From: a bacterium
GTDB lineage: Bacteria > SZUA-182 > DTGQ01
Assembly (NCBI GenBank): GCA_023512255.1
Contig: JAILZY010000023.1
Location: 1-43,473, forward strand
Reading direction: 5' to 3'
DNA length: 43,473 nucleotides
Made by a program: the position numbers and the translations under genes. Below are positions 28,852-35,546 of this stretch, in pieces. Position 1 is the first letter of the stretch; each line of letters opens with the position of its first letter. A model generated the notes under the pieces. That model ran no database searches. It saw nothing but the letters and a program-made list of their open reading frames with translations, and was not told the origin of the DNA.

Positions 28852-28934
28852 TTCATCGTTATGCCGATCTTGCTATGAGGATCGGCCGCGGTACAAAATC
28901 AGTTGACTATCTTACAAGACAAGGGGAGACAGCA

Positions 28935-30155
28935 ATGTCGAGATTTTTTTCCCGTTCTCTGCGTGCTCTTGGGGCGGATAGCTACAGGTGGTCAGTGGTG
29001 TGTCTGCTTTTGGCCGCTGTGATTTTCCTTCTCTGGGCGATCTGGTTTTTTGGGGCTAAAGTTACCCTTTATGAGGTGAGTGAGGAGGCAAAATTAGAAC
29101 TTGAGCGGGCGGCCTATGCGCTCGATGCCCCGATTGGAGGCCGGATTGTGGCCAATAATATGACTCTTGGCCGAATGGTGCAGGCTGGGGAAGTGCTGAT
29201 TGAATTAGATACAGCCACAGAGCGCCTGATGATAGATGAGGAGCGCTGCGGCCTAGATGCTCTCAGCCGACAGCTCGAAGCGCTTTCCGCTGAGCTTAAA
29301 GCCCAACGGCAGGCCCATTCTGAACATCAGCAGATGATGCGAAAGGCTATTGATGAGGCCCGGGCCAGGCAGCGGGAGGCAGAGGTGGACCTTCTGCTAA
29401 TGGAGGATGAGCTTGAGCGAATGATTGCCTTGCGGAATAAGGGCATGGTGTCTGAAGTGGATCTTCTTCAGGCTAAGGCTGAGATGCAAAAACGCCGTCA
29501 GGCGGTTGCGGCCCTTGAATTTCGCACCCATCAGCTCGAGTGGGAGGAGAAAAACCGCAAGAGTGAAAGCCAGGTGCAGATTGAGCAGATCAAGCGCCAG
29601 ATAGCTATGATCAAGGGAGAGATAGCCGCCAAAAATCTGGCCATTGAGCGAATCCGCCGCCGAATTGGCCAGGGGTTTATTCGGGCGCCAGTCTCTGGAC
29701 AAATTGATGGTCTGAAGGATTTGAGGATCGGGTCGGTGATCCGCGAGGGAGAAAGACTAGGAACGATTCTCACTCGCGGGCGGCTTACCATTACAGCCGA
29801 GTTTTCTCCATCAGAGGCGGTAGGCCGCATCCGACCCGGACAGACAGCCAGGCTTCGACTAGACAGCTTTCCCTGGACCCAATACGGCACTATTCCGGCC
29901 AGGGTCGCCAGGGTCGCCAGCGAGATTCGGGATGGCCGTGTGCGGGCCGAACTCGTCCCTGGTCCAAATCTTCCCTCTTCCATCCCTCTCCGGCATGGTT
30001 TGTCAGGGGCGGTTGAGGTTGAGGTGGATCGAACTACACCGGCAGAGCTGCTGCTGCGGCTTGCAGGAAAGCTGCTGGCAAGACCATCGACCATCGTGGG
30101 CTCACCAGCCAGATTCGTAATTTCAGCTCAAGCCGGAGGACAGGATGTCCACTGA
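28935..30155 (+). CDS. HlyD-family membrane fusion (periplasmic adaptor) protein
   Basis: A 406-residue adaptor of a type I-like secretion system. One membrane helix (about residues 16-42) is followed by a first biotinyl-lipoyl half with DAPIGGRI and GEVLIELDTATE, and then a coiled-coil hairpin from about residue 105 to 235, rich in Glu, Arg and Gln. The second lipoyl half is RAPVSGQIDGLKDLRIGSVI, with a beta-barrel region beyond it. Such adaptors link inner-membrane ABC exporters to the outer membrane or stabilise peptide export. The frame opens at 28875, but the ATG at 28935 has AGGGGAGA six bases before it. It overlaps the next gene by 11 bases, so the three exporter genes are one operon. 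No outer-membrane channel gene is present. Confidence 0.88.
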   Translation: MSRFFSRSLRALGADSYRWSVVCLLLAAVIFLLWAIWFFGAKVTLYEVSEEAKLELERAAYALDAPIGGRIVANNMTLGRMVQAGEVLIELDTATERLMIDEERCGLDALSRQLEALSAELKAQRQAHSEHQQMMRKAIDEARARQREAEVDLLLMEDELERMIALRNKGMVSEVDLLQAKAEMQKRRQAVAALEFRTHQLEWEEKNRKSESQVQIEQIKRQIAMIKGEIAAKNLAIERIRRRIGQGFIRAPVSGQIDGLKDLRIGSVIREGERLGTILTRGRLTITAEFSPSEAVGRIRPGQTARLRLDSFPWTQYGTIPARVARVASEIRDGRVRAELVPGPNLPSSIPLRHGLSGAVEVEVDRTTPAELLLRLAGKLLARPSTIVGSPARFVISAQAGGQDVH

Positions 30156-33105
30156 TACTTCCTCATCCCATACTTCCTCATCCCGCCTGCCCTTCCCGCT
30201 CTCGCTCTGGCGAGCCTGGCAGCAGAGCCGCCAGCGTTTCCTTATTCCAGAAATTGTGCAAACTTCGAGCATGGATTGCGGGCCGGCCTCCCTCAAGTGC
30301 CTTCTCGAAGGATTTGGCATCCAGATAAGCTATGGTCGGCTCCGTGAGGCCTGTCAGACCGATGTCGATGGCACCTCACTGAATACCCTAGAGCAGGTAG
30401 CCGTGCAGCTTGGACTTGAGGCAGAGCAAATCATCCTGCCAGCCGATCATCTCCTGCTTCCCCAAGCCAGGGCCTTGCCAGCCATCGCTGTGGTTTGTAG
30501 CCCAAGCGGGCTGACCCACTTTATCGTCATCTGGCGGGTTCATGGCCGCTTGGTCCAGGTCATGGATCCGGCTACCGGCAGAAGGTGGCCCACAAGGCAG
30601 CAGATGCTCAATGAGCTATATATCCATACCATACCTGCTCCAGCTTCTGCCTGGCGAGAGTGGACAGAGACAGCCGAATTTGTGGGAGCTCTCTGCCAAA
30701 GACTAGCCAAGCTCGGGCTGTCGCTTAAAGAAAGGGCTTTGCTCGCTCAAGAGGCTCTTCAACACCCTGCCTGGCAGCCGATAGCCATCCTAGATGCAGC
30801 CTGCCGGATGGTCGATTCATTCACCAGATCAGGCGGCCTAAAGCCAGGAAGACAAGCTAAGAGTCTACTCAGGGCTTTGTTCGACCGCGGCCTAGAAAGT
30901 GCCTCTGAGATAGAGAAAATCATTCCAGCTGCCTATTGGTCAGTCCAGTCTACTACCCAGGTTGGGCCACAGGGCGAGGAGCAGCTTATCGTGCGCGGTG
31001 CTGTGCTTGTGCGGGTGCTTGGCAGACTGGCTACAGGCAGCATCAGCCACCTAATCCCAGAGCAGCCTAAGGCTTTGACTGATAAGCAGGATATCTCAAA
31101 AGGGCAAGCTATCCCAAAAGGGGAGGATAATCAAGCCGCGGCGGGGATGGACAAAAGCCGTGGGAGAGATGAGGCGAAGGCTCCTTCTCCTTCCCCACTC
31201 TCGCCTGAGCTTGAGGCGGCCCTCCATGAGCGGCCACTAAGCCCTAGCCGCGAGATTCTAAAGCTTCTAGCCCAAGATGGATTTTTCTCTCCCTTGCTTC
31301 TTTTAGCCGCGCTAGCTTTGGCTGCGCTCAGTGTCATCGTTCAGGCCTTGTTATTTCGCTCTCTCTTTGACCTTGTCCGTGAGCTTGGCCTGGCTGGGCA
31401 GCGATTTGAATTTATGGCCGCAATAGTCATTTTTGCCATCGCCGCTCTTCTCCTTGAGCTTCCGATCGCGGCCGAGCTGCTTCGTCTTGGTCGGCACCTT
31501 GAGATGCGCCTTCGTCTGGCCTTCATGGAAAAGCTCCCCCGACTCCATGACCGGTATTTTCAAAGCCGCCTTACCTCAGATATGGCCGAGCGAAGCCACA
31601 GCGTTCACCTGTTGAGGCTACTGCCAAGCCTTGGCGGGCAAATCATCCGCACAGCCTTTGAACTCATTCTGACTGTGGCTGCGATCTGCTGGCTCTATCC
31701 GGCAAGCGGCCTGATTGCCCTTGCGGCCGCTGTGCTCAGCCTCGGCCTCCCTCTGGCCGTAAGCCCTTGGTTAGCTGAGCGAAATCTGAGGGTCAGAAAT
31801 CACGCCGGAGCCTTGAGCCGCTTCTATCTCGATGCGCTGCTTGGCCTAGTGCCGATTCGGGCTCATGGAGCCCAAAGAGCGGTCCGCCGTGAACATGAGG
31901 ATCTGCTCATCGAGTGGGCGCGGGCTGGCTTTGGCTTTCAATCGGCAGTGGTGATGATCGAAGGGCTATCCTCCCTTATCGGCTTTGGGTTAGCTGCCTG
32001 GCTTCTGTTCAGCTACCGGGCAGGAGGAGGTGAGCCTGGTGGGGTTCTCTTGTTGGTTTACTGGGCGCTAAATCTGCCAAACCTTGGTCAGACGGTGGCC
32101 ATGCTGGCCCGGCAATATCCCAATCAGCGCAATGTGGTCTTGCGGCTGATCGAGCCTCTCGGCGCTCCCGAAGAGTCTACTGCTGAAAAAGTGATCATCC
32201 CTCGCCCACACTCTCCTGGAGTAGCCACAAACCGCCGGGCCGGCGTATCCCTACACCTTGAGGGGGTAAGTGTTCGGGCCGCTGGACAGATCGTTCTTGA
32301 AGATATAACCTTGGCCATTGAGCCAGCAAGCCACGTGGCTATTGTTGGCCGCTCAGGTGCCGGCAAATCTACCCTGGTTGGCCTTTTTCTCGGCTGGTAT
32401 CGGCCATGTGCCGGAAGAATCCTGGTCGATGGCTGTCCTCTGACCGCTGAGCGGCTTGAGCGGCTCCGTCGCCAGACAGCCTGGGTCGATCCAGCGGTTC
32501 ACCTGTGGAATCGCTCCCTGCTCGAAAATCTCCTGTTTGGAGTCGATCCAGACCAAGAGCTTCCAATCGGGCAAGCGATCAAGAAGGCCGGCCTTCAGGG
32601 TGTTCTGGGACGGCTGGCCTCAGGGTTCCAGACTCGGCTCGGCGAAGATGGTCGCCTGGTTTCAGGCGGTGAGGGACAGCGAGTGCGCCTTGGTCGAGCC
32701 ATGATCCGACCAGGGGTGCGACTGGTGATCCTGGATGAGCCGTTCCGTGGACTCGATTACCAGCAGCGGCGAGAGCTTCTGACCAACAGCCGCACCCTTT
32801 GGCCACAGGCCACCCTCCTTTGCATAACCCATGATATCGCTGAAACCAAGACCTTTGATCAGGTCCTAGTGATGGAAGGGGGCCGGATCGTGGAAAGCGG
32901 CTCTCCAGCCGATCTTGCCCAAAGAGCAAACTCTCGCTATCGGGCTTTGGCCAAGGCCCAAGAGATGGTCAGAAAGGGTTTTTGGTCAGCTCCGGCCTGG
33001 CGCAAACTTCGGCTCGAAGGAGGGCAATTAACTGAAGCTACTGATGCCTTGAAGGAAATCGAAGAGGCAAACCGGGTATTAGCCGCCCAAGGGGATTACG
33101 AATAA
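30145..33105 (+). CDS. ABC exporter with N-terminal C39 peptidase domain
   Basis: A peptidase-containing ATP-binding transporter (PCAT) of 986 residues, well above the usual 700. Residues 35-160 form a C39 cysteine-protease domain with an apparently intact triad: Cys45 in SMDCGPASL, His126 in LTHFIVIW and Asp142 in VMDPATG. Such domains cut double-glycine leaders while the carrier exports the core. Residues 160-375 are an unrecognised insert ending in a Lys/Gly/Pro-rich linker. The transmembrane domain spans about 378-640. The nucleotide-binding domain has Walker A GRSGAGKST (735-743), signature SGGEGQR (840-846) and Walker B VILDEP (Glu865). It resembles the peptidase-bearing half of NHLM-type bacteriocin exporters. 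No substrate peptide gene is visible. Confidence 0.88.
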   Translation: MSTDTSSSHTSSSRLPFPLSLWRAWQQSRQRFLIPEIVQTSSMDCGPASLKCLLEGFGIQISYGRLREACQTDVDGTSLNTLEQVAVQLGLEAEQIILPADHLLLPQARALPAIAVVCSPSGLTHFIVIWRVHGRLVQVMDPATGRRWPTRQQMLNELYIHTIPAPASAWREWTETAEFVGALCQRLAKLGLSLKERALLAQEALQHPAWQPIAILDAACRMVDSFTRSGGLKPGRQAKSLLRALFDRGLESASEIEKIIPAAYWSVQSTTQVGPQGEEQLIVRGAVLVRVLGRLATGSISHLIPEQPKALTDKQDISKGQAIPKGEDNQAAAGMDKSRGRDEAKAPSPSPLSPELEAALHERPLSPSREILKLLAQDGFFSPLLLLAALALAALSVIVQALLFRSLFDLVRELGLAGQRFEFMAAIVIFAIAALLLELPIAAELLRLGRHLEMRLRLAFMEKLPRLHDRYFQSRLTSDMAERSHSVHLLRLLPSLGGQIIRTAFELILTVAAICWLYPASGLIALAAAVLSLGLPLAVSPWLAERNLRVRNHAGALSRFYLDALLGLVPIRAHGAQRAVRREHEDLLIEWARAGFGFQSAVVMIEGLSSLIGFGLAAWLLFSYRAGGGEPGGVLLLVYWALNLPNLGQTVAMLARQYPNQRNVVLRLIEPLGAPEESTAEKVIIPRPHSPGVATNRRAGVSLHLEGVSVRAAGQIVLEDITLAIEPASHVAIVGRSGAGKSTLVGLFLGWYRPCAGRILVDGCPLTAERLERLRRQTAWVDPAVHLWNRSLLENLLFGVDPDQELPIGQAIKKAGLQGVLGRLASGFQTRLGEDGRLVSGGEGQRVRLGRAMIRPGVRLVILDEPFRGLDYQQRRELLTNSRTLWPQATLLCITHDIAETKTFDQVLVMEGGRIVESGSPADLAQRANSRYRALAKAQEMVRKGFWSAPAWRKLRLEGGQLTEATDALKEIEEANRVLAAQGDYE

Positions 33106-33128
33106 TGGAGCGGAGAGAGTATATATAA

Positions 33129-35420
33129 ATGGAAGAGAGTAGAGAGTTGACAGAAAAATTTTCCTCTGAAGATGAGGCTTTCTCCTGGCCAATATCTCGA
33201 TTGGGTGAAGCCCTGGAAATGCTGGCCCAAAAAAGTTCTCTCAAGCCGCGATCAATAAAGATACCACCGCCGCCGCAGAGTATATTGCTATCCCTCTCAG
33301 CCGAATCCATAAGCGAAGCTCTTGGGGCATGGATCGACTCCGCAGCCCGCTGCCTTGGGCTTGAGGCTGAGCCGATCGAGATCACCTATGCCATGAGCGG
33401 TAAAATTTTACCGCGCGTGGCACCTGCCCTAATTCTCCTGCCTGGACAGCCTCAATCGCCCGCAAGACAGCAGCAGCAGCCCGCACCAGAGCAACCCGAG
33501 GCCGCCTGGCGCTTTTTGGTCCTCATTCCCGCTCGCCGGCAAGGCCGAAGAAGCAGATCCTTATCCGTACTTAGATCCGATCACAAGGTCCAGCGAATCG
33601 ACCTTGAAATTGTCCGAAGCCTGCTTTGCTGGAAATTGGAGGCATACCTTGCTCCTGAAATCGACCGATTGTTTGACCAGGTCAAGGCCGTGGTCAACAA
33701 GTCGCACCGCGGGCGGATGCGAGCAAAGATTTTAGCCGAACACCTTGCTCCTTTTAAGGTTTCCTGTGGCTGGCTACTTCGACTATCCCCTGGGGCGAGC
33801 TTTTGGGAGCAGATGAAGCAGGCTCGTCTTTGCGGCTACTTTTTCGCCCTCACCGGCACCTCGGCGGCTCAGTACGCATTGATGATCTTCTCCTGGTGGC
33901 TCATTGGCCGGGGAGCACTGCAAGGCAGACTCGATTTGGGGTGGCTTATAGCCTGGGCCCTGCTTCTCCTTAGCATGATCCCCTTGCAGATGCTCACTAC
34001 TTGGTTTCAGGGATGTCTGGCCATTAATGCCGCCGGGCTTCTAAAACAGCGACTCTTATATGGCGCCTTGCAGCTTGAGCCAGAGGAAATCAGCCACCAG
34101 GGGACAGGGCAGCTCCTTGGTCGGGTAATAGAGTCAGAGGCCTTAGAATCCCTGGCCTTAAGCGGCGGATTAAGCAGCTTGAGCCTGATGATCGAGCTTG
34201 TGGCTGCCAGCGCTATCCTAGTTGTCGGTGCCGCCGGTAGATTGAGCAGCCTTCTTTTTCTTGCCTGGATGGGAATCGGCCTCCTCTTAGGCTGGCGCTA
34301 TTTTGCCGCCCGCTGGCAGTGGACCAAGGCGCGGCTTGAGATAACCCACGATCTGGTTGAGCGGATGGTTGGCCACAGGACTAGGCTTGCTCAGGAGCGC
34401 CGCCAAAGCTGGCATGAGGGAGAGGATCATTCGGCTGAGCACTACCTTGAACTGTCAAAGACGATGGATAGACGCAGCGTACTGCTTACCACCCTGGTGC
34501 CCTCAGGCTGGCTAGTTTTGGGACTCATCGGCTTGTCTGTAGCCTTTGTTTCAGGCCAGGCACAGACAGCCTCAGCTATGGCCGTTGGCCTGGCCGGTAT
34601 CCTTCTTGCCCAGCGGGGGCTGGGAAAGCTTCCGTCAGGGCTTTTGAGTCTGGCTGATGCGGCTATCGCCTGGAAGCAGGTCGCACCCCTCTTTCATGCC
34701 GCAGGCCGCGACAGCTTGGCAACCGATAGCTTACCCTCCTCTTGCGCTCTTGCCTACACCGCCGCTGGCCCCTATTTTCACCAAGATGGACAGCCAGCCG
34801 ATGAGCGCTATCCGCTGATTGAGGCCCAAAACCTTACCTTCCGCTACCGAGGCCACAGCCAACCAGCAATCTTTGGATGCAGCCTGCAAATCTGGCCCGG
34901 TGATCAGCTCCTGCTCGAAGGCCCCTCCGGAGGCGGAAAATCTACCCTCGTCTCTTTGCTCATCGGCCTGCGAGTGCCCGAATCAGGCCTTCTCCTGATG
35001 AGCGGCCTTGATCTTTCAACCATAGGCGGAAAAGAGTGGCGACGCCGAGTGGTGGCTGCTCCGCAGTTCCATGAAAATCATGTCCTGAGTGCCCCCCTAG
35101 CCTTCAATCTTCTTATGGGGCGACGCTGGCCACCACAGCCGGCTGATCTTGAAGAGGCTGAAAAAGTCTGCCGAAAGCTTGGCCTTGGCGATCTCCTTGA
35201 CCGAATGCCAGCCGGTCTTATGCAGCCAGTCGGTGAGACTGGCTGGCAGCTGTCTCACGGAGAAAAGAGCCGCCTCTACATCGCCAGAGCCCTCCTTCAG
35301 GCCGCAGACCTGATCATCCTCGATGAGAGCTTTGCAGCACTTGACCCTGAGAGCCTAAATCAAGCCTTGAGCTACGTTCTTGAGCAGGCCCCAACTCTTC
35401 TGGTGATCGCTCATCCATAA
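33129..35420 (+). CDS. Second ABC exporter half with divergent N-terminal domain
   Basis: A 763-residue ABC transporter, probably the heterodimer partner of the preceding protein. The first 230 residues contain a globular region with RVAPALILLPG and RFLVLIPARRQGR that parallels the strand pattern of C39 domains but lacks the catalytic Cys and His; this reading is inference. The transmembrane domain runs from about 235 to 530, and the nucleotide-binding domain has Walker A GPSGGGKST (598-606), signature LSHGEKSR (708-715) and Walker B LIILDES (Glu733). The signature reads SHGE instead of SGGE, so one of the two ATP sites may be degenerate. The gene follows 23 bases after its partner, with GGAGAGAG upstream. 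Confidence 0.82.
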   Translation: MEESRELTEKFSSEDEAFSWPISRLGEALEMLAQKSSLKPRSIKIPPPPQSILLSLSAESISEALGAWIDSAARCLGLEAEPIEITYAMSGKILPRVAPALILLPGQPQSPARQQQQPAPEQPEAAWRFLVLIPARRQGRRSRSLSVLRSDHKVQRIDLEIVRSLLCWKLEAYLAPEIDRLFDQVKAVVNKSHRGRMRAKILAEHLAPFKVSCGWLLRLSPGASFWEQMKQARLCGYFFALTGTSAAQYALMIFSWWLIGRGALQGRLDLGWLIAWALLLLSMIPLQMLTTWFQGCLAINAAGLLKQRLLYGALQLEPEEISHQGTGQLLGRVIESEALESLALSGGLSSLSLMIELVAASAILVVGAAGRLSSLLFLAWMGIGLLLGWRYFAARWQWTKARLEITHDLVERMVGHRTRLAQERRQSWHEGEDHSAEHYLELSKTMDRRSVLLTTLVPSGWLVLGLIGLSVAFVSGQAQTASAMAVGLAGILLAQRGLGKLPSGLLSLADAAIAWKQVAPLFHAAGRDSLATDSLPSSCALAYTAAGPYFHQDGQPADERYPLIEAQNLTFRYRGHSQPAIFGCSLQIWPGDQLLLEGPSGGGKSTLVSLLIGLRVPESGLLLMSGLDLSTIGGKEWRRRVVAAPQFHENHVLSAPLAFNLLMGRRWPPQPADLEEAEKVCRKLGLGDLLDRMPAGLMQPVGETGWQLSHGEKSRLYIARALLQAADLIILDESFAALDPESLNQALSYVLEQAPTLLVIAHP

Positions 35421-35546
35421 GGGGAAAACCCTTTTGAAAAAGGGTTTTCCCCTTATCACCCCTTTCCTAAAACTTTAATAGCTAGCTATTAAAGTTTTAG
35501 GAGGATGGTTTGGAAGGAACCCTTTTTCAAAAGGGTTCCTTCCAAA
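35417..35546. repeat. Three consecutive long perfect palindromes
   Basis: Hairpin 1 at 35417-35456 has 19-bp arms around a 2-base centre and includes the stop codon of the exporter gene. Hairpin 2 at 35465-35502 is an uninterrupted 38-bp palindrome centred on GCTAGC. Hairpin 3 at 35509-35546 has 18-bp arms around a 2-base centre. The cores of hairpins 1 (AACCCTTTTGAAAAAGGGTT) and 3 are reverse complements of each other, so the whole block is symmetrical about hairpin 2. Neither hairpin 1 nor 3 is followed by a T-run, so simple terminators are not the full explanation. hrpA starts 15 bases later. Confidence 0.85.

Follow-up and report, generated by a model that had tools for sequence, protein, structure and literature searches.

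A candidate heterodimeric C39-ABC exporter of the SZUA-182 lineage and its putative K-x-x-T-N-x-K-A-G-tagged peptide substrates

Exporters in which a C39 peptidase is fused to an ABC transporter (PCATs), such as PCAT1, ComA, LahT and CvaB, cut the leader of their substrate during export. Classical C39 sites have Gly at position -2. In the NHLM/NHLP systems (TIGR03794, TIGR03796 and TIGR03797), an HlyD protein and a C39-ABC protein are accompanied by a second ABC protein without an active peptidase, while HlyB-type T1SS have a non-catalytic C39-like domain expected to bind the substrate, HlyD and TolC partners, and large, C-terminally signalled substrates. In class II and III microviridin clusters, GG motifs are processed by C39 transporters, class I being mostly devoid of GG (PMC13039773). 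Finally, HetC of Nostoc is a C39-ABC exporter (an orphan PCAT) with no GG precursor nearby and no neighbouring gene for a membrane fusion protein; an atypical signal and a distant gene are the two explanations for the missing precursor that its authors raise as a question (PMC10986499).

The stretch of DNA analysed here (43,473 nt, hereafter the window) is the whole of contig C156 of a draft, probably metagenome-assembled genome (G000), as are many of the genomes used for comparison. As the original prediction had stated, it contains an operon of three genes, all on the + strand (28935-35420): an HlyD-type periplasmic adaptor (28935..30155; PF13437, 2.5e-15) and two ABC proteins, ABC1 (30145..33105, 986 aa, homologues in 68 loci) and ABC2 (33129..35420, 763 aa, homologues in 52 loci). 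The adaptor, whose presence sets the locus apart from that of HetC, is 71% identical to its counterpart in a sister species (G001); its longest open reading frame opens at 28875, while the conserved start MSRFFSRSLRAL, common to the homologues, lies at 28935. Several TolC-like proteins are encoded in the genome, and no large RTX-type substrate was found among the open reading frames beside the operon. Inverted repeats 3' of the operon (35421..35545, no strand assigned; paired motif at 35428-35536) are, on direct reading of the sequence, probably terminator hairpins. They are long, consecutive and located directly after ABC2, and may be either a stack of terminators or a repeat element of palindromic type.

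ABC1 consists of a C39 peptidase, a family-specific domain, a membrane domain and an ATPase, with Pfam matches to Peptidase_C39 (PF03412, 1.9e-21), ABC_membrane (PF00664) and ABC_tran (PF00005), and thus has the make-up of a PCAT, an N-terminal C39 domain with Cys, His and Asp fused to an ABC exporter. The peptidase domain (30253..30612) is the only PF03412 match in the whole genome. Its catalytic residues Cys45 (30277-30279), His125 (30517-30519) and Asp141 (30565-30567) are unchanged in 60 of 60 homologues; the triad had been correctly recognised as intact from the sequence, Cys45 included, while its other two members had been misnumbered as His126 and Asp142. Along with the triad, the Walker and signature residues of ABC1 are invariant across the family. 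Structure prediction, proposed earlier as a check on both N-terminal regions, gave for ABC1 a model with pLDDT 87 that matches PCAT1 (2.2e-8) and the peptidases of LahT and ComA. The unrecognised insert of about 215 residues between peptidase and membrane domain is real but not foreign: residues ~167-297 (30643..31035) form a helical and beta-hairpin domain conserved in an alignment of 59 homologues (AlphaFold pLDDT mostly >95), and only the disordered linker of residues ~298-350 (31036..31194; pLDDT about 45) is variable.

The sole Pfam match of ABC2 is ABC_tran. Its residues ~20-160 (33186..33608) nevertheless align with the C39 domain of ABC1 (hhalign probability 93.7, E 1.9e-7), with other residues at the catalytic positions, in agreement with the previously noted lack of catalytic residues in this region. 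The model of the ABC2 N-terminus (pLDDT 88) has PCAT1 as its top Foldseek match, followed by other papain-like folds, none of them below E 0.001; therefore, assignment of a C39-like fold is good by profile comparison and suggestive by structure. The proposed combination of one active and one degenerate peptidase half agrees with these data. It distinguishes the locus from PCAT1, ComA, LahT and CvaB, which have neither an inactive C39-like half in a heterodimer nor the extra domain of ~130 residues. A degenerate C39-like domain without the catalytic Cys, characteristic of HlyB-type systems, is seen in ABC2 only and with a weak fold match; here it is paired with an active C39 half, and the predicted substrates are short, N-terminally tagged peptides.

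The ATPase domain of ABC2 (34878..35420) is unusual in two respects. Its signature reads LSHGE, the alteration to SHGE having been noticed at the outset; SHGE stands in place of SGG(Q/E), and the His is kept in 43 of 47 homologues and replaced by Gln in the remaining 4. Moreover, the protein stops at VIAHP, directly after the H-loop and ~40 residues short (the TIGR03797 match ends at position 643 of 686). Every ABC2 homologue with an intactly read ATPase end stops likewise at (A/S/C)H(P/S), right after the H-loop; thus, the early stop is a family trait rather than damage, and a broken or frameshifted ABC2 was rejected on this ground. It is also a difference from PCAT1, ComA, LahT and CvaB. The Walker A Lys, Walker B Glu and H-loop His are conserved among the homologues.

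The C39-plus-insert region was used to search named genomes, which yielded 73 loci, the last seven (L091-L097) being marginal. Homologous operons, in which the order HlyD-ABC1-ABC2 recurs, number about 70 and span at least seven phyla. According to record titles, the carriers belong to Acidobacteriota, Chloroflexota, Planctomycetota, Myxococcota, Gemmatimonadales, Desulfobacterota-type bacteria and Gammaproteobacteria, the latter represented by Microbulbifer, Alteromonadaceae and Parabeggiatoa. Viral contigs yielded no relatives. The exporter belongs to a widespread branch of the peptidase-containing exporters that is apparently undescribed. Genes for ECF-like sigma factors, TPR proteins and kinases are repeatedly found in its vicinity, mainly in Acidobacteriota and Planctomycetota, possibly with a role in regulation; the observation covers L026, L027, L033, L041 and about 17 loci with Ser/Thr kinases. 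A short HlyD-like protein (about 150-200 residues) lies beside ABC1 in L028, L037, L044-L047, L053, L060 and L067, mainly in Chloroflexota and also in Desulfobacterota-type loci.

Many of these exporters adjoin tiny open reading frames whose products start with MK[VIT]K[TS]N[VIL]KAG. A strict N-terminal regular expression gave 65 matches in 22 of 70 exporter loci, compared with a single match when the sequence was reversed, 0-1 when it was shuffled (five times) and none in control loci amounting to 190 kb; a leave-one-locus-out profile gave about 80 matches at a score of at least 13, with a null of 0. Almost all isolated tagged copies are preceded by a Shine-Dalgarno sequence. A tagged peptide is encoded in the fetched flank of 34 of 68 exporter loci, at a median distance of 1.1 kb from an exporter gene; the flanks of the other 34, some of them on short contigs, contain none. 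The genomes of at least eight such tag-less loci have pattern matches elsewhere, and about two dozen loci remain without an identified precursor. In 49 whole genomes, nearly all of them exporter carriers, the pattern matched 66 times, with 1 match in the control, and some of the matches lie far from the exporter; therefore, substrates encoded apart from their exporter appear to be common. Instead of a leader of the GG, GA or GS type, the linked precursors have one that closes with the Ala-Gly of KxxTNxKAG, and in most of them Ala replaces the canonical Gly at -2. The GG/GA search image recommended originally thus turned out to be the wrong one, MKxxTNxKAG standing in its place. Four representative precursors compared with Pfam and NCBIfam fell into no family and produced only scattered matches below the cut-offs. 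The motif strings gave no match in the open-access papers covered, and among the papers listed in a second literature search only unrelated uses of "KAG motif", mostly concerning HLA and diabetes, were encountered. The tag K-x-x-T-N-x-K-A-G is unfamiliar.

As expected from the original prediction, which had found no substrate gene nearby, the window contains no motif-bearing peptide gene, a situation resembling that of HetC. The guess that substrates are encoded elsewhere was borne out by a pattern search of the genome, which revealed four tagged genes on contig C83, encoding the candidate precursors MKITTGLKAGFRVTPWSLTLLNIFGITPFGLFHLFA (973-1083), MKIAANLKAGFRVTPWSLTIFSWSVLTPWGFFNFFA (1356-1466), MKIATNLKAGFRVTPWSLTIFSWTALTPWSFFNLFA (1553-1663) and MKVKTTLQAGILITPFFIWIPWIRILTPFGFFRYL (1865-1972); reversed-pattern controls gave 0-2 matches. 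The pattern was taken from the leaders of the sister species; an earlier one, stricter at position 4, had given one chance match. These precursors contain neither PFFARFL nor TxKxPSD motifs. The genome has 43 radical SAM matches, and the precursors were found without such a gene nearby. In the sister species, five precursor homologues are located directly behind ABC2, and the flank amidase-yicC-gmk-coaBC is common to this cluster and the one on C83; codon differences between the two species are concentrated at third positions. In a more distant genome (G003), four precursors follow ABC2. Among 60 genomes, clusters of the pattern were found only in these three, which are the three with the exporter; four others have single matches, probably due to chance. 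Since the precursors of the sister species lie behind ABC2 and share flanking genes with C83, it is probable that the genes for exporter and substrates were neighbours in an ancestor and became separated in the present genome. As they occupy separate contigs here, their pairing is drawn from the sister species and from homology. The comparison of gene neighbourhoods suggested at the start was informative, as it placed tagged tiny genes beside the exporters of relatives; with these and the four genes on C83, the reading of an orphan exporter was rejected. In the sister species, the interval that separates the precursor cluster from the amidase gene (L022:7469-13807) holds a second candidate peptide system, which has no counterpart at the equivalent position on C83. 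Judged from sequence, its members are an ABC transporter, a separately encoded C39-like peptidase whose start resembles a signal peptide, a beta-barrel-like protein, and two proteins of the radical SAM and PqqD-like kinds.

The predicted cargo differs greatly between lineages. Precursors of the tiny-leader type, such as MKVKTNVKAGSVNWG in Chloroflexi, have cores of 4-9 residues, and Microbulbifer has 16 or more copies in one locus; the cores of the lineage studied here are hydrophobic and 25-26 residues long, those of the present organism being rich in Trp and Phe; a further type, found in eight loci, consists of tandem NHN repeats. Five loci (Sorangium, Planctomycetota) have ATP-grasp ligases or microviridin-type precursors. 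In all nine graspetide precursors of these five loci, K/R-[TS]-x-[VI]-[KR]-A-G lies between a PFFARFLE-type leader and the core, the place occupied by GG in class II and III microviridins, and a TxKYPSD-type core is present in eight of the nine. Since the cargo includes 4-9 residue peptides, hydrophobic 25-mers, NHN repeats and microviridins, the tag appears to be a portable export signal, not part of one product. ATP-grasp ligases together with a PFFARFL...TxKxPSD precursor beside the exporter occur in related loci; the window yielded neither an ATP-grasp homologue nor a PFFARFL gene. As in class II and III microviridin clusters, a C39 exporter would remove the leader of the PFFARFL...TxKYPSD precursors (PMC13039773); unlike in those clusters, the motif is KTxVKAG instead of GG, and the same exporter family serves unmodified-looking tiny peptides without a ligase. 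The 15-residue precursor MKVKTNVKAGSVNWG occurs in three copies in one Chloroflexota genome (L040:5896, 6005, 6113) and unchanged in another (L034:5689), which fits a conserved pentapeptide product. Other Chloroflexota loci share a tagged protein of 60 residues, which differs from the tiny cores of the remaining loci and has a conserved tail of the form CGCD-R-Q-LN (L044:6741-6923, L045:6788-6973, L046:5203-5400, and L053 near 6887).

Taken together, the data make it very probable that a heterodimeric C39-ABC exporter, with HlyD and a TolC-like channel encoded in the genome, carries small ribosomal peptides tagged with K-x-x-T-N-[VIL]-K-A-G out of the cell. In the tiny precursors, the tag (residues 1-10) would constitute the entire leader. 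The C39 domain of ABC1 would recognise it and cleave behind Ala-Gly. The leader may be held by the C39-like domain of ABC2, perhaps with the helical domain of ABC1; such a role has been proposed for domains of this kind in other exporters (see the discussion in PMC10986499). The C-terminal part released in this way, a peptide of about 25-26 residues here, would leave the cell via HlyD and one of the TolC-like proteins. Because the KAG motif separates the PFFARFLE leader from the core in the graspetide precursors, it most likely marks the site of C39 cleavage and export as a counterpart of the double glycine. Uncut export of the 14-60 residue peptides, with the motif retained and C39 serving another purpose, is unlikely: leaders of only 10 residues, Ala at -2 and precursors in which cutting leaves only 4-5 residues (e.g., MKIQTNVKAGMKIR of L071) are in its favour, but the invariant triad of the 60 homologues speaks against it, as do the leader-core position of the motif in microviridin precursors and its repetition before each unit of tandem precursors.

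Two further readings assign the exporter other substrates. The resemblance to NHLM bacteriocin exporters noted in the original prediction extends to the three-gene make-up, and NHLM models are among the best NCBIfam matches; however, none of the three proteins comes near its curated cut-off (43.9/156.2 bits for TIGR03794, 187.8/853.3 for TIGR03796 and 102.4/709.4 for TIGR03797), which led us to reject membership. Nor did the genome contain a match to the Nif11 leader (TIGR03798; one positive control matched) or to the NHLP leader (TIGR03793; a search without a positive-control match), and the tagged peptides, which differ from the precursors of NHLM/NHLP systems, already account for substrates. 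A standard NHLM/NHLP exporter with NHLP or Nif11 precursors elsewhere is thus extremely improbable. It is also very unlikely that the exporter moves something else (a protein toxin, a small thiol as in CydDC, or a lipid), as the original prediction had allowed, with the tagged peptides as unrelated neighbours. CydC, CydD and MsbA models of NCBIfam do match the ATPase and membrane parts, and tagged genes are missing from about two dozen exporter loci, but the co-occurrence of tag and exporter is tight and specific across many phyla, including unlinked genes in the same genomes, and neither CydDC nor MsbA works with a C39 domain.

The tagged-peptide exporter would thus work like a PCAT. As the double-glycine leader of PCAT substrates is replaced by KxxTNxKAG, it is not a plain PCAT; nor is it an HlyB-type system alone, and the most fitting description is a new subfamily of PCATs that has a tag of its own. 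Most likely it serves to export peptides that act as antagonists or signals; the presence of several paralogues with variable cores would suit bacteriocins and signals alike. In a broader sense, we regard it as reasonably likely that this is a general peptide-secretion system of at least seven phyla, in which the tag K-x-K-T-N-V-K-A-G replaces the double glycine, the cargo is very different and includes 4-9 residue peptides whose genes, at 14-19 codons, would be missed by annotation pipelines, and the partner ATPase works without the ~40 C-terminal residues found after the H-loop in related ABC exporters.

If so, one motif would open a large, unannotated set of secreted peptides encoded by genes of 14-40 codons, beside the exporter or far from it, in Acidobacteriota, Chloroflexota, Planctomycetota, Myxococcota, Microbulbifer and others. 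It would also provide a testable answer to orphan-looking C39 exporters, the question posed for HetC, and suggest where the leader is removed in one group of microviridin clusters. The conserved end of ABC2 at the H-loop is a puzzle for the mechanism of ABC ATPases, and the predicted leader would offer a very short export tag of 10 residues.
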